Virus record (IMG/VR): IMGVR_UViG_3300033146_004708
Span: 1-36,864 of that record
Reading direction: 5' to 3' (one strand)
Source: a virus
Length of the DNA: 36,864 bases
Position numbers and translations under genes: made by a program. This document shows positions 1,959 to 9,945 of the stretch, in pieces; the first letter of the stretch is position 1; each line of letters starts with the position of its first letter. Below the pieces are notes generated by a model. The model searched no databases, had not been told where the DNA came from, and saw only the letters and a list, made by a program, of their open reading frames with translations.

Positions 1959-3361
1959 TTTTCTTCATTATATGTTTGAAGTCTTGTTATAGAGTGTTCA
2001 GCAAGATATTTATAAGGATCAAGAAAATCAATTAACAGGATTGATTTTTTTGTCTCTGTTGTTCTTAATCCTCTGCCCATTGCTTGAAGTACTCTTTTTT
2101 TCTCTTTCATTCCTGCGGCATAAATTATGATTTCTAAATTTTTTATGTTTATGCCTTCCATCCAGACCTTAGATGCTATTACAATATGATTTTTATTTTT
2201 TATAATGTCATTTTTATGTCTCATTCTTTCTTCGTTATCAAGACTTCCTTGGATAAATGGAACATTTATTTTTAGTCTTTTTTTGAATATGGTTTGAAGT
2301 AATTCTCCATGTTTTATCTTTTCTATTATTATCAGAGTCGGACTTTTGTTTTTTAATGCCTTTTCTACAATTTTTTTGATTAATTCATTGCGAGTCTTGT
2401 TTTCTACAATTCCAAATTGATAAAAGTTTGAATATTTGCTTCTTGATGCTTTTGTTATCTTATTATCATATTCTACATTTATGAGTTTTATTTCTGGTTT
2501 TGCAATTGTTCCGTCTTTGATTCCTTTTTTGATTGTCAGTTTTGATATGACAGGTCCGAGTAGACCTTCATTTACAAGAAGACTTTCTTTTGATTTGAAA
2601 CTATCGGTTCCAGTAAAACCATATCTTCTTGGTGCTAAATTAAATTCTAAAAATCTTCCATATTGTGAGTTTAATTTTGTTACATGATGACATTCATCTA
2701 TAATTATGACATCAAATAAATCAATGAAATTTTTATTGTCTACTTTTGATATACTTTGGATTGTTGTTATTAATAAGCAAGGAGACTGTTTTGTCCTTAT
2801 TGATTTTAATGTATTTTCTACTTCTTTTGATCCTCTTGGATTAAAGATTACAGGAAGGCTTTCTTTAAACGATTGTGCTTCATTAGTTATTTGGCCAATC
2901 AGATCTTTTGTATGCGCAATAATAGCGCATCTCTTTGTTCTAAACATGCTTATGATTCCAAGTGCAATGATTGTTTTTCCACTTCCTGTTGGAGCAATTA
3001 TTTTTCCTCTATTTATTCGCTTTATTTTTTTTAGTGCTGATAATTGGTCTTTGCGGAAAGTTATATTTTTTAATTCTGGTTTGCTATCGGGTTTTATTCT
3101 CTCTCTTTTTTTGTCTATGACTTCAATTTTTATTTCTCTATTTTTACAATATTTCAAAACTCTTTTTATTAGACCAGTCAGAAAGGTTCCGCTTGAACCT
3201 TTTCTTCCAGTTATCAAATATTGTGTTTTGATTATTTGTTGTTTTGCAAAATATCCTTTTCTCCAATATTCTTTTTTATAGGCAAGAGCAAATTTAATGA
3301 CTTCCCTTGCTTCTGGATTTGCTCTTGCATGAATTTCATCAAGAATTACTATCTTTTTCAT
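1949..3361 (-). CDS. SF2 (DEAD/DEAH-type) helicase
   Basis: 470 residues from the ATG at 3361, chosen because AAGGAG lies at the right spacing; an in-frame upstream ATG at 3427 would lie inside a hairpin. After an N-terminal domain of about 100 residues come a Q-motif-like FRKDQ, Walker A APTGSGKT (about 123-130), motif II DECHH (about 222-226) and motif VI MGRGLR near the C-terminus. This is the superfamily 2 layout of phage UvsW/Rad25-like helicases, which remodel forks and recombination intermediates. It is followed by an overlapping primase gene, so the two form a replication pair. A 20-bp hairpin precedes it, suggesting separate control from the upstream genes. Confidence 0.9.
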   Translation of the reverse strand: MKKIVILDEIHARANPEAREVIKFALAYKKEYWRKGYFAKQQIIKTQYLITGRKGSSGTFLTGLIKRVLKYCKNREIKIEVIDKKRERIKPDSKPELKNITFRKDQLSALKKIKRINRGKIIAPTGSGKTIIALGIISMFRTKRCAIIAHTKDLIGQITNEAQSFKESLPVIFNPRGSKEVENTLKSIRTKQSPCLLITTIQSISKVDNKNFIDLFDVIIIDECHHVTKLNSQYGRFLEFNLAPRRYGFTGTDSFKSKESLLVNEGLLGPVISKLTIKKGIKDGTIAKPEIKLINVEYDNKITKASRSKYSNFYQFGIVENKTRNELIKKIVEKALKNKSPTLIIIEKIKHGELLQTIFKKRLKINVPFIQGSLDNEERMRHKNDIIKNKNHIVIASKVWMEGINIKNLEIIIYAAGMKEKKRVLQAMGRGLRTTETKKSILLIDFLDPYKYLAEHSITRLQTYNEEKWI

Positions 3362-3391: not shown

Positions 3392-3440
3392 AAAAACTAC
3401 TATCATGACATCTAAAATATATGTCATGATAGTAGTTTTT
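3392..3440 (-). terminator. 20-bp perfect hairpin, probable intrinsic terminator
   Basis: Arms 3392-3411 and 3421-3440 are exact complements around a 9-nt loop. On the minus strand the stem ends in a run of T, so it fits a Rho-independent terminator after the gene at 3480-3782 and just before the helicase gene. The arms also end in A5/T5, making it usable in both directions. No ribozyme core is present. If it terminates, the helicase-primase part would depend on readthrough; I see no well-spaced promoter in the 30 bases after it. Confidence 0.65.
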
Positions 3441-3479
3441 CATTTTTTGTTTCCTCTTTTTAGTCTAAGTTATTTTGTG

Positions 3480-3782
3480 TTATAGAGTTTTAATCCATTC
3501 TTTGATTTCCCAAATTACTTCATTAATCAAATTTTCTCTTAACCATTTCGGAGTTGATTTCCATTTGATTGACAGAAAACTTTTTATTTTGCTTTCAGTT
3601 ATTTTTTTTGTTTTGCTTCTGCCAGAAGGTAGAATTTCAAAGATTTCATTTGGACTTTTTATGATGATCCAAATGATTTCTTTTGCCTCTCTGGATAGCT
3701 TTTCAAAATTATCTGCCTTTATGACCTTTTGGATCGGTGTCAATTCTGGAGATTCAATTTCTAATGGTTTGACTTCAAGCAT
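3480..3782 (-). CDS. Small protein resembling phage sigma/HTH-like proteins (tentative)
   Basis: 100 residues, ATG at 3782 after AAAAGGAGG. The stretch from LSREAKEIIW to the C-terminus (about 33-98) follows the pattern of small phage proteins with a sigma-70-region-4-like helix-turn-helix: LSxEAxxII, a short helix, then a KxxIKxFL recognition-like helix and a Trp-rich end. That assignment is from memory of the pattern and is weak. Its start overlaps the end of the upstream Cys-rich gene by 8 bases, and a hairpin follows it, so it closes a transcription sub-unit. Confidence 0.5.
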   Translation of the reverse strand: MLEVKPLEIESPELTPIQKVIKADNFEKLSREAKEIIWIIIKSPNEIFEILPSGRSKTKKITESKIKSFLSIKWKSTPKWLRENLINEVIWEIKEWIKTL

Positions 3783-4276: not shown

Positions 4277-5167
4277 TTAAATATCAATTTTGCGTTTAGT
4301 CTGTACGTTTGGAATTTTTTCTATTTTCTTCATCATTGAAGATAATTTGTTTCCAATTTCCAATCTAAACTCTTGATTGCTTTTCAACCGTTCAATTGTG
4401 ATTTTTTTCATTTCTCTTTTTAGGCGATTGATTGTTGTCTTTATTTTTTTGTCATCAACATGCGGTTTCCAGAGTTCTTCCCATTTTTTAATTAGTCTTT
4501 CAATCGAACCGATGGTTTTGCCATGAAGACCTTCTCCTGTCTCACATTGTTTTTGGAGTTTTTCAATTCTGAGAAGAATTTCATTTCCGATTAATGTTAT
4601 TGTCATTTCTTCCATTTCCTTGACCATTGCTTTTGTTCTTTCAATTTGTTTCTTATATTCTGCTGGATTGATTTCCATCATCTCTTTCCCGGGAATGCCA
4701 ATTTGAAAGAAATTCCATTGCATATAAAATCTGTCTCTTAATCTTTCTTTGCTTGGATATTTATTTGAGACAGCATTGTAATATTCTGGATATTTTTTCT
4801 GAAATTTTCTTTTCAATTTGTCATAATTGGAAATGAGAATTTCGACTCGATTGTTTATCTCATTATTGAATTCCTTCAAGTTTTCGTTTACTTCTCCAAC
4901 TTTTTCGGCTGGTATGAAATAAACAGCATCAATCGGGAATGGCAAAGAACTATTCAAGACATAATATTTCGCTTGTCTCTGTACAGTCATAATGTCTTTG
5001 ATAAGTGTTTTGTCAACAAACATATCCTGCATTGCTCGAATAATTTCCTTGGGAATATTTTTGCCGAGAAGTTTTTTATCGAGTCGTGCGGATGCTGTCC
5101 AAAATCCAGTTCTAAAATTGATAAGAACACCATTAGTCAAGTTTTCCAGTGCTTTGATTTCATTCAT
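4277..5167 (-). CDS. DUF3150 family protein
   Basis: 296 residues, ATG at 5167 after AAGGAGGATTTAAA. The N-terminal part matches what I know of DUF3150: a short opening beta segment (VLINFRTGFWTASARLDKK), a helix, then the SLPFPIDAVYFIPAEK motif and long charged helices (about 95-290). DUF3150 proteins are phage or mobile-element proteins of unknown function, often near AAA ATPase genes; an AAA ATPase gene lies 1.4 kb upstream in this operon. The mostly helical C-terminal half is predicted coiled coil. A pistol ribozyme lies between it and the upstream gene, so its message would start at the cleavage site at 5204. Confidence 0.75.
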   Translation of the reverse strand: MNEIKALENLTNGVLINFRTGFWTASARLDKKLLGKNIPKEIIRAMQDMFVDKTLIKDIMTVQRQAKYYVLNSSLPFPIDAVYFIPAEKVGEVNENLKEFNNEINNRVEILISNYDKLKRKFQKKYPEYYNAVSNKYPSKERLRDRFYMQWNFFQIGIPGKEMMEINPAEYKKQIERTKAMVKEMEEMTITLIGNEILLRIEKLQKQCETGEGLHGKTIGSIERLIKKWEELWKPHVDDKKIKTTINRLKREMKKITIERLKSNQEFRLEIGNKLSSMMKKIEKIPNVQTKRKIDI

Positions 5168-5199
5168 TTTAAATCCTCCTTTTTTAGTTTGTTTGTTTT

Positions 5200-5277
5200 A
5201 CCAACTTTGAAGGAGAGTTTAAACTCTCCTTCAAGCGCTCATAGCTTAATGGTCTATTTATAGTCGCTATGACGACT
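5200..5277 (-). ncRNA. Pistol self-cleaving ribozyme 1
   Basis: Minus strand. P1 is AGTCG (5277-5273) with CGACT (5266-5262). Its 6-nt loop TCATAG pairs as a pseudoknot with CTATGA (5244-5239). The conserved linker ATAAATAG, then P2 ACCA, TTAAG, the pseudoknot strand and GCG all follow the pistol order. P3 is a 14-bp stem (near 5235-5207). P2 closes with TGGT (5203-5200), and the predicted cut is between G5205 and U5204. Compared with the other four copies, P2 changes to ACCA/TGGU and the pseudoknot changes on both strands, which is covariation. It starts 4 bases after the stop of the 5282-6103 gene. Confidence 0.9.
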
Positions 5278-6563: not shown

Positions 6564-7982
6564 TTAGATAATTTCAAGTTTTCTTGATTTGACTTTGTGT
6601 TTTGTTGCAGAGGTTGGAATGTCTGCTGGGATTGTGCGTCCTTTTGCCCAGACTCTTAATTCTGTTATTTCTTCTTCCATTGTTAAAGCCATAGGCAAAA
6701 TGAATTTACTGGCTTTTGTTAAAGAGACATTCCTCATATCTGCATTATGGCAAAGTGCTTCAATTTCTGCTCCTGTCCAATCTTCCATCTTGGGAATTGT
6801 CTTTGGTTTAGGCAGGGAGAATTTCTTGATATAGTAGTCAAGAATTTTTCTCTTTACTTTGTCATTTGGAAGATCAACAAAGAATGGTGCGCAATCCCAT
6901 CTACCAGCCCGAAGATATTCCGGAGGCACTCCCCGAAAACTGTTAAATGTTGCGGCAATGTAAATGCCTTTTGGTCGATCTTGCAAAAATTCAAGCCATC
7001 GGCCTGTTGCTCGTCTTGTCACTCCAGAATCAAGGTCACCAGTACTGCCAGCACCGGCAAATTGCTTTTCCATTTCATCAAACAATATAAAGCAATCTCC
7101 AAGTGCAGTAACAAGGTCAATAAACTTTTCGATATTGGCATCTGTTTCACCTTGGAATTTCGAAAAGAATTTGCCCATCCTGACCTGAATCCCAAGTTTT
7201 CCAGACTCGGCAACAATTGCTTTTGCAAGGCATGTTTTGCCGGTTCCCGGAGGGCCAATAAAACAAACTCCTTTACTTTTGGGATTGTCAATTGTTGACA
7301 TGACTTGTTCTTTTGGATTTTCAAGACCAATAATGTCATCGAAAGTAATGTCAGGCCGAAGAATTGTTGCAAACCCTGATTTTTCGATTGTTTGCGCTCG
7401 ATAGTCATTAATTACTTCAAGATCAAATCTTTTCTTCTTGACAAGTGACAGGGCATAAACGTTTTCCAGTTCTCGTAAAGTCAAACCTTTGCTTGTCTTA
7501 ACTACCTTTTCAAGATATGAACCTTGCGGAACATATTTTGAATCGGGAGCAACAGTTTTGATTTGTTCTGAAATTTCATCTTCTGTTGGCATGGGCATCT
7601 TTAAAATAGTAAAGTCTTTTTCCAATTCGATTGGAATTTTTTTTCTGTTAGAGACGATTACTATTGCTTTATTTTCTGATGCCCAGATTGGGATGGAGTC
7701 TTGTATTTTTTGGATGACTTGCGGTCTGTCAATAAACCAGTGATAGTTGAAACAGAACATGACAGTATATTCATCTGCACTGTCAATTTCTACTAATGGT
7801 TGCATGGGATTTGCGTCTTTTAAACAAGACCATTCAGAAGACTTGTAATGACTGCCGTTTTTGAGTTTAAAATCTTCCAATTTTTGATAGAAGTTTTGTT
7901 TTACTCTCGACGGTTCATCAGTTTCAAGCCAAAACAAAGTAAAACCTGCTCTTAGATAGTTAATGAGTTCCAGTTCTTTCAT
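6564..7982 (-). CDS. AAA+ ATPase, Ycf46-like
   Basis: 472 residues, ATG at 7982 after GGAGGATTTGAA. An N-terminal domain of about 200 residues opens with the LRAGFTLFWLETDEPSRV pattern seen in Ycf46-type ATPases. The AAA module follows: Walker A GPPGTGKT (243-250), Walker B FILFDEME (about 299-305), an arginine-finger region near TRRATGRW and a C-terminal lid. Ycf46-like ATPases are widespread in cyanobacteria and phages, with no settled function. Here the neighbours are DUF1257 (Ycf35-like) and DUF2997, the same association known from cyanobacterial genomes, so they may act together. Hammerheads flank it on both sides. Confidence 0.85.
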   Translation of the reverse strand: MKELELINYLRAGFTLFWLETDEPSRVKQNFYQKLEDFKLKNGSHYKSSEWSCLKDANPMQPLVEIDSADEYTVMFCFNYHWFIDRPQVIQKIQDSIPIWASENKAIVIVSNRKKIPIELEKDFTILKMPMPTEDEISEQIKTVAPDSKYVPQGSYLEKVVKTSKGLTLRELENVYALSLVKKKRFDLEVINDYRAQTIEKSGFATILRPDITFDDIIGLENPKEQVMSTIDNPKSKGVCFIGPPGTGKTCLAKAIVAESGKLGIQVRMGKFFSKFQGETDANIEKFIDLVTALGDCFILFDEMEKQFAGAGSTGDLDSGVTRRATGRWLEFLQDRPKGIYIAATFNSFRGVPPEYLRAGRWDCAPFFVDLPNDKVKRKILDYYIKKFSLPKPKTIPKMEDWTGAEIEALCHNADMRNVSLTKASKFILPMALTMEEEITELRVWAKGRTIPADIPTSATKHKVKSRKLEII

Positions 7983-8015
7983 TTCAAATCCTCCTTTGTT
8001 AAAGTTATTTGGTTT

Positions 8016-8077
8016 GCCTCATCAGTATATGAATAACCAATTCATACAGACCGGAGAATTACTTCTCCGGTTTCGGC
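8016..8077 (-). ncRNA. Type II hammerhead ribozyme 2
   Basis: Minus strand, two bases after the stop at 8080. GCC-GAAA, stem III CCGGAG/CTCCGG, GUC, stem I TGTATGAA/TTCATATA (one G-U pair), CTGATGA (8025-8019), then GGC. Predicted cut after C8049. Compared with copy 1, stem I has changed on both sides and still pairs. Confidence 0.93.
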
Positions 8078-8079
8078 GG

Positions 8080-9120: not shown

Positions 9121-9408
9121 TTATTTTCTCCTATCTTTTCCGGTTCGTCTGTCATTAGGGAAATAAAGAGTCTCTCCTTTACGTCTATCTGATTTTCTTC
9201 TATTGTTGACAATCAGTTTTAAATTGAATGGATTGTCAAGAACAGAAAAACTTTTGTTCGGAGACGATGAATTGAAAAACAGAATGTCGACTTCTTCTGC
9301 CTTTTTGCCGTTATGTATAAATGACCATGCTCTATCAACTGCTTGATGCAGTTGATCATTTGGATAAAACGGCAACATCTCTTTTCCGTTGACTGTTACC
9401 TTGTACAT
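9121..9408 (-). CDS. Small protein with Arg-rich C-terminus, unknown function
   Basis: 95 residues, ATG at 9408 after GGAGGATTGAA. Residues about 1-70 look like a compact mixed fold. The C-terminal 28 residues carry two RRKxDRRK-like clusters (NNRRKSDRRKGE and NDRRTGKDRRK), a pattern often seen as a basic tail in small bacterial proteins. There are only 2 bases between its stop and the next gene, so it is cotranscribed and uncut with the repeat membrane protein. Upstream lies the unclassified structured element at 9452-9518. Confidence 0.6.
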   Translation of the reverse strand: MYKVTVNGKEMLPFYPNDQLHQAVDRAWSFIHNGKKAEEVDILFFNSSSPNKSFSVLDNPFNLKLIVNNRRKSDRRKGETLYFPNDRRTGKDRRK

Positions 9409-9451
9409 TTCAATCCTCCTTTTAAAGTTATTTGTATTAGATCAAACATTT

Positions 9452-9518
9452 AATTTGAATGACCTGAACAATACACAAAGCAAAGTAAAACTTTGTGTAT
9501 TGTGCTCGGATTCAAATT
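9452..9518 (-). ncRNA. Unclassified structured element occupying a ribozyme position
   Basis: Minus strand. A 9-bp outer stem AATTTGAAT (9518-9510) / ATTCAAATT (9460-9452), an asymmetric internal loop CCGAGC (9509-9504) opposite TCAGGTC (9467-9461), then a 13-bp inner stem ACAATACACAAAG (9503-9491) / CTTTGTGTATTGT (9480-9468) with a 10-nt loop. The upstream gene's stop codon overlaps its first bases, exactly where pistol and hammerhead elements sit at other boundaries. I could not match it to hammerhead, pistol, twister, twister-sister, hatchet, HDV or hairpin ribozymes. It may be a new self-cleaving motif, an RNase III site or only a stem. Confidence 0.7.
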
Positions 9519-9852
9519 AAAACTGATATAGTTTAAATTTAAGTAGATTTGTAAGAACAGATTTAAGATATTCTGTTTTCATTCCATTTGCAAATATTTC
9601 GGCCACAAACTCGTTTTCAAATTCTTTACTGTAATAAGAACAGCCGAAATCGTTATTTTCTTTATGAGTAGAATATTTGAAAACTTGAATTGTAATTTCA
9701 TTTCCATCGACAATGACGATTGCATCATGATGAATAAGTCTTTTCAGATTTTTATCAACTTCGGCGATTATAATTTCTCCAATTTTCGGTTCCTCTGATC
9801 TGCAGCCGGCAAAAGCATTCCAGTCATCTTTGGTAAATGGTCTCAATTTCAT
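9517..9852 (-). CDS. Hypothetical protein
   Basis: 111 residues, ATG at 9852 after GGAGGATTTGAA. It is not recognised. It starts MKLRPFTKDDWNAFAGC and has a strand-rich middle (IGEIIIAEVD, HDAIVIVDGNEITIQVF) consistent with a small beta-rich fold. Its stop overlaps the unclassified RNA element downstream, and a hammerhead lies between it and the upstream gene. Confidence 0.6.
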   Translation of the reverse strand: MKLRPFTKDDWNAFAGCRSEEPKIGEIIIAEVDKNLKRLIHHDAIVIVDGNEITIQVFKYSTHKENNDFGCSYYSKEFENEFVAEIFANGMKTEYLKSVLTNLLKFKLYQF

Positions 9853-9882
9853 TTCAAATCCTCCTTTTTATTTATTTGGTTT

Positions 9883-9944
9883 GCCTCATCAGTGTACAGG
9901 TTACCATCCTATACAGACCGGAGAATTACTTCTCCGGTTTCGAC
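9883..9944 (-). ncRNA. Type II hammerhead ribozyme 4
   Basis: Minus strand, one base after the stop at 9946. GTC-GAAA, stem III CCGGAG/CTCCGG, GUC, stem I TGTATAGG/CCTGTACA (one U-G pair), CTGATGA (9892-9886), then GGC. Stem II pairs GGC with GTC through a central G-U, unlike the G-C of copies 1 and 2. Predicted cut after C9916. Confidence 0.92.
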
Positions 9945-9945
9945 A

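Follow-up and report, generated by a model that had tools for sequence, protein, structure and literature searches.

The left third of the window, i.e. the 36,864-nt stretch of viral DNA analysed here (IMG/VR record IMGVR_UViG_3300033146_004708), carries on its minus strand an early-type phage operon in which many small genes are combined with primase, helicase and AAA-ATPase genes, and RNA structures are present at many of the boundaries between them. Rfam models detect five pistols, plus two hammerhead type II ribozymes that score below the curated cut-off, all of them intergenic and on the strand of the element described below. Among these are a hammerhead type II at 9875-9945 (33.4 bits, cut-off 37), located at the boundary preceding the element, another one at 8008-8078 directly upstream of the ATPase gene and a pistol at 5200-5277 upstream of gene 4277-5167; the slots orthologous to the latter two hold rod-shaped elements in the related phages L001, L211 and L212. 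By eye, two extra hammerhead-II-like sequences can be recognized at gene boundaries (about 8767-8695 and 6563-6502, minus strand), both built from GAAAC, a stem, a cleavage triplet, a second stem and CUGAUGA and neither listed as hammerhead II by Rfam at E = 10, so that the window total is about four hammerheads and five pistols. Besides, the leader before the first operon gene contains two occurrences of a roughly 38-nt sequence, CAATAGTAAAGAGCAATGTCAATAAGTCTCCGAAAAGT, on the minus strand (about 12037-12000 and 11846-11808).

At 9449-9521 (minus strand), between two genes without family match encoding proteins of 111 aa (upstream, 9517-9852) and 95 aa (downstream, 9121-9408), lies an element consisting of a 12-bp outer stem P1, an internal loop CCGAGC/TCAGGTC and a 13-bp inner stem P2. 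The P1 5' strand TTTAATTTGAAT (9521-9510), read directly from the sequence, is paired with the 3' strand ATTCAAATTAAA (9460-9449), and covariation of this stem is seen in relatives. The 5' loop strand L1, CCGAGC (9504-9509), reads CCGGGC in L001 and L211, and the 3' loop strand L2, TCAGGTC (9461-9467), is the predicted cleavage place. P2 is formed by ACAATACACAAAG (9503-9491) and CTTTGTGTATTGT (9480-9468), which enclose a 10-nt apical loop TTTTACTTTG (9481-9490). A putative alternative stem P3 (9439-9465), in which AGGTCA (9465-9460) pairs with TGATCT (9444-9439), would compete with P1. The TAA stop codon of the upstream gene (9519-9517) is placed inside P1, and the ATG of the downstream gene (9408), preceded by a directly readable ribosome-binding sequence AGGAGG (9415-9420), follows 41 nt past the element. 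Hence, the internal loop, the 13-bp stem and the overlap with the stop codon given in a preliminary description of this locus are retained, while the outer stem extends over 12 instead of 9 bp and the distance to the next start is 41 instead of 45 nt.

The predicted folding energy amounts to -31.6 kcal/mol on the minus strand (z -8.1) and -28.1 kcal/mol on the plus strand (z -6.9), with none of 200 shuffles being as good in either case; the strand is indicated by the family model introduced below, which scores the same hairpin with 31.9 bits on the minus versus 11.7 bits on the plus strand. No Rfam family matches the element with a threshold up to E = 10, as anticipated in the preliminary description, according to which it fits no known class. 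Specifically, a hammerhead core (CUGANGA plus GAAA around a three-way junction) is absent from the sequence, the pistol model RF02679 does not match and the Rfam covariance models for twister, twister-sister, hatchet, HDV and the RAGATH motifs likewise give no match up to E = 10. The element also does not resemble a rho-independent terminator, as it is not a GC-rich hairpin with a T run behind.

Via the ATPase gene, the related phage contig L001 was found, which contains 18 boundary elements following the plan TAATTGA-AACCGGGCA-stem-NNGCAGGTATC-TCAATTA. Their stems covary, with 8 cells changed on both sides compared to 1.5 in shuffles, and the loop is identical in 17 of the 18 copies, the one at 5112-5178 deviating; Rfam gives no match to them up to E = 1. 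A covariance model trained solely on these 18 elements identifies positions 9452-9518 (minus strand) as the only convincing place in the window at about 32 bits (E 3.4e-6), the runner-up reaching 13 bits, and scores two L211 copies at 51 bits as well. On 843 kb of other phage DNA, chosen for carrying the loop letters of the motif, the top score was only 18.4 bits. Since the model built from L001 alone finds the window place on the gene-coding strand, the element is a member of a recurring RNA family with 18 copies in L001 and two in L211 that has no Rfam entry. The loop letters CCGRGCA and CAGGU are common to L001, L211 and the window, whose P2 sequences are unrelated (3-5 of 12 bases alike).

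The exact loop pattern TCCGAGC..TCAGGTCA gave 120 chance matches in viral contigs, none of them with complementary stems; the pattern AACCGGGC..GCAGGTATC had contig 3300037245_002727 as sole real match, and TGAANCCGRGCA..CAGGTNNYTCA matched 10 further contigs, none of which shows the fold. The protein of the upstream gene retrieved no relative, GenBank phages gave no match to the window DNA or to the two conserved proteins tried, and the ATPase query recovered only a distant AAA protein from genome contigs. The first-pass genome search missed the window copy found by cmsearch, so its zeros are no proof of absence. In three further relatives obtained via the DUF3150 protein, no copy with the loop of the window element (type a, see below) was present.

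Searches with the ATPase alignment resulted in 11 clear relatives, eight of which (L213, L214 and L216-L221) bear hammerhead-II ribozymes at gene boundaries, arranged as long arrays in several of these phages. In L001, L211 and L212, no Rfam ribozyme is detected and most small-gene boundaries are occupied by irregular rods, a shape which the window element shares in having a lower stem, a small internal loop, an upper stem spanning roughly one helical turn and a position at a gene boundary. When slots were compared across 12 phages, those preceding the ATPase gene and the DUF2997 gene (g8455) were never empty: L001, L211 and L212 have rods there, and the window, like most other phages, has hammerhead-II; upstream of g8455, L214 has an irregular rod that was missed by the classifier. 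At the boundary preceding the DUF3150 gene (g4277), the window has a pistol, most phages have hammerhead-II, and L001, L211 and L212 again have rods; L214 has a hammerhead missed by the simple pattern and L220 another rod. Neither rod nor ribozyme occurs before g8080 or g3775 in the compared phages; a single rod call at g8080 of L221 was discounted, as its loop has 2 nt and the sequence is apparently coding. Finally, downstream of the gene neighbouring the element, the window has its rod and L218 a hammerhead-II. This swapping of rods and ribozymes at the same places argues for the same task, i.e. separating the messages of neighbouring genes, a role that Perreault et al. (2011, PMC3088659) proposed for prophage hammerhead arrays. 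Most likely, the rod marks a site at which the transcript is cut.

Several boundary structures of the relatives fall outside this scheme. Lone rods with other loops exist in L214 (about 3400-3480 and 7920-8027) and L220 (about 6890-6970), contigs otherwise mostly equipped with hammerhead-II. In the relative L241 (IMGVR_UViG_3300028920_002952), another unclassified element is located at boundaries, e.g. upstream of 4143, 4994, 6426 and 9983, which comprises two stable hairpins with one strand (e.g. CCTCC) able to pair either upstream or downstream and matches none of the Rfam ribozyme families. In L232, a boundary element at about 850-945 resembles a hammerhead in containing GAAAC and GUC but has UUGAUAA instead of CUGAUGA, and it gave no Rfam match. 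The sequence AGGTAAATCAATT is common to the 3' part of an L211 rod with the window-type loop (3022-3099) and the tail of an L214 hammerhead-II (1893-1960), in both cases at the same position ahead of the ribosome-binding site, which might be either chance or the trace of a replaced ribozyme. A hammerhead-derived origin of the L211 rods, considered on account of this shared sequence, was dropped because the L214 tail is probably part of a hammerhead pseudoknot.

In the 41 rods measured, the median length is 13 bp for P2 (quartiles 12-14) and 8 bp for P1, compared to medians of 7 and 8 for hammerhead stems III and I, respectively, in the same clade. The loops fall into type a (L001, L211 and the window), type b (L211) and types c1 and c2 (L212), L211 thus carrying types a and b together. 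Types b, c1 and c2 fill equivalent slots without possessing the type a core. In type b, nearly all middle positions are paired, with several pairs covarying, and hardly any unpaired bases are kept, the constant features being mainly U.G and U.U adjoining P2. The covarying type b stems in L211 are P1, P1b, P2 and P3, and within a single alignment the covariation of P1 as well as that of P3 exceeds the level in shuffles. P3 begins 2-6 nt past P2 and employs bases also engaged in P1; its strength over all rods is 16.3 versus 11.6 in shuffled flanks, with 56% of the rods at p < 0.05, although in the window copy by itself it is not significant (p = 0.39). As P1 and P3 are mutually exclusive in full, the arrangement looks like a switch, the purpose of which is perhaps release of the cut product.

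For the function of the element, a processing site of the RNase III type in an early phage operon, in a variant equipped with the competing stem P3, is the reading we favour, at about even confidence. According to sequence and to covariation in relatives, P1 and P2 stack into a two-turn rod interrupted by the asymmetric internal loop. Host RNase III would then set a single cut in or beside the 3' loop strand UCAGGUC, a place predicted from site R1.1 of phage T7, which is likewise cut in the 3' loop strand. This cut would split the long transcript between the two genes, leaving an upstream mRNA that terminates in hairpin P2. In relatives, the freed 3' strand could refold with downstream bases into P3, a pairing demonstrated by covariation in L211, and P3 might serve in separating the two products and capping the downstream mRNA at its 5' end. 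Rods of this clade would accordingly be stand-ins for the hammerhead-II and pistol ribozymes at the same boundaries of sister phages. The data demonstrate the structure, the family, the strand and the slot exchange, and from these we infer that the cut happens, as well as its place and its agent.

Preference for RNase III over a ribozyme is due to the comparison with T7, whose RNase III sites follow the plan P1, ACTC, P2 of about 10 bp, TATGA and P1', with loop strands conserved across sites. The internal loop of R1.1 is asymmetric with 4/5 nt (PMC6121014), and cleavage takes place at nucleotide 5887 (PMC8708148). This nucleotide lies within the TATGA strand. Owing to the conservation among T7 sites, within-phage conservation of the loop is to be expected of RNase III sites and is no proof of a catalytic core. 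Moreover, rod types without a common core and with a long P2 of near-constant length suit a double-strand nuclease better. In 11 phage records, which are fragments and were searched with blind spots, no encoded RNase III was found; the enzyme would hence be that of the host, as in T7. Counting against an RNase III site are the slot, otherwise occupied by self-cleaving ribozymes, the lack of P3 in T7 sites and the persistence of the type a loop in three phages (L001, L211 and the window) whose P2 stems have diverged, which is reminiscent of a catalytic core.

The same persistence would be explained by a new class of self-cleaving ribozyme with the loop CCGRGCA/(G)CAGGU as core, cleavage in the 3' loop strand and removal of the product by P3, which we regard as rather unlikely. 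Similarly improbable in our estimation, type a rods acting as ribozymes would replace hammerhead-II and pistol at boundaries in one phage clade. In line with a ribozyme, the slots are orthologous to those of hammerhead-II and pistol, the core letters persist in three phages despite unrelated P2 stems and 17 of 18 L001 copies share an identical loop. However, merely about a dozen loop letters are common and are broken by the L001 copy 5112-5178, type b, present also in L211, and types c1/c2 of L212 lack the core yet reside in equivalent slots, a ribozyme has no need for a long P2 of near-constant length, and T7 RNase III sites are equally conserved in their loops. With regard to the preliminary description, its assignment to a ribozyme slot agrees with pistols and hammerhead-II being located between genes on the same strand and with known ribozymes at the same orthologous boundaries in relatives, and the loop proposed there for a search in homologues indeed recurs with differing stem sequences. 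Its candidate new self-cleaving motif is a genuine motif outside Rfam, while the T7-like anatomy and sister rods without shared core, among which type b with its scarcity of unpaired bases does not resemble a ribozyme class, speak against self-cleavage and make the RNase III-type hairpin, put forward there as the dull alternative, the better-supported reading.

Less probable still is recognition of the loop by a different RNA-binding protein or endonuclease, possibly encoded by the phage, with protein and site co-evolving in each phage. This would fit the fact that most loop types are confined to one phage (a to L001, b to L211, c1/c2 to L212), but types a and b coexist in L211, the search for RNase III family proteins in the phage records was negative and the tested small operon proteins show no RNase family match. 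A structure acting without any cut, as hairpin stabilising mRNA ends, as insulator of the translation of neighbouring genes or as P1/P3 switch, is equally doubtful, since the swap with ribozymes at orthologous boundaries suggests cleavage and the element is not terminator-like, notwithstanding the stop codon within P1 and the bases shared by P1 and P3, both of which covary in L211.

Within a single clade, the same boundaries thus each bear either a known self-cleaving ribozyme or a rod of an undescribed family, which is in effect an exchange experiment carried out by nature. Its outcome speaks for a true function of phage hammerhead and pistol ribozymes in cutting polycistronic messages, the role proposed in 2011, and raises the question of whether a site cut by a protein can take the place of a ribozyme or whether the rods are themselves ribozymes of a new kind.

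Compared to known systems, the element shares with the hammerhead type II arrays (Rfam RF02276; PMC3088659) the gene boundaries and the presumed production of single-gene mRNAs from a long transcript, but has neither CUGANGA nor GAAA in core position nor a three-way junction. Pistol (RF02679) occupies the same kind of slot with five copies in the very same operon, and differs in possessing a P1 hairpin with pseudoknot. Closest in build are the T7 sites R0.3, R0.5, R1.1, R4.7 and R18.5, which likewise lie at gene boundaries, mostly in the early operon, and combine a lower stem, a small asymmetric internal loop and an upper stem with loop strands conserved within one phage. Compared to these, P2 of the rods is longer (12-14 versus about 10 bp), the loop CCGAGC/UCAGGUC is of similar build but falls outside the T7 set typified by ACUC/UAUGA, the competing downstream stem has no counterpart in T7 and clade-mates of the rod phages use ribozymes in the rod slots.
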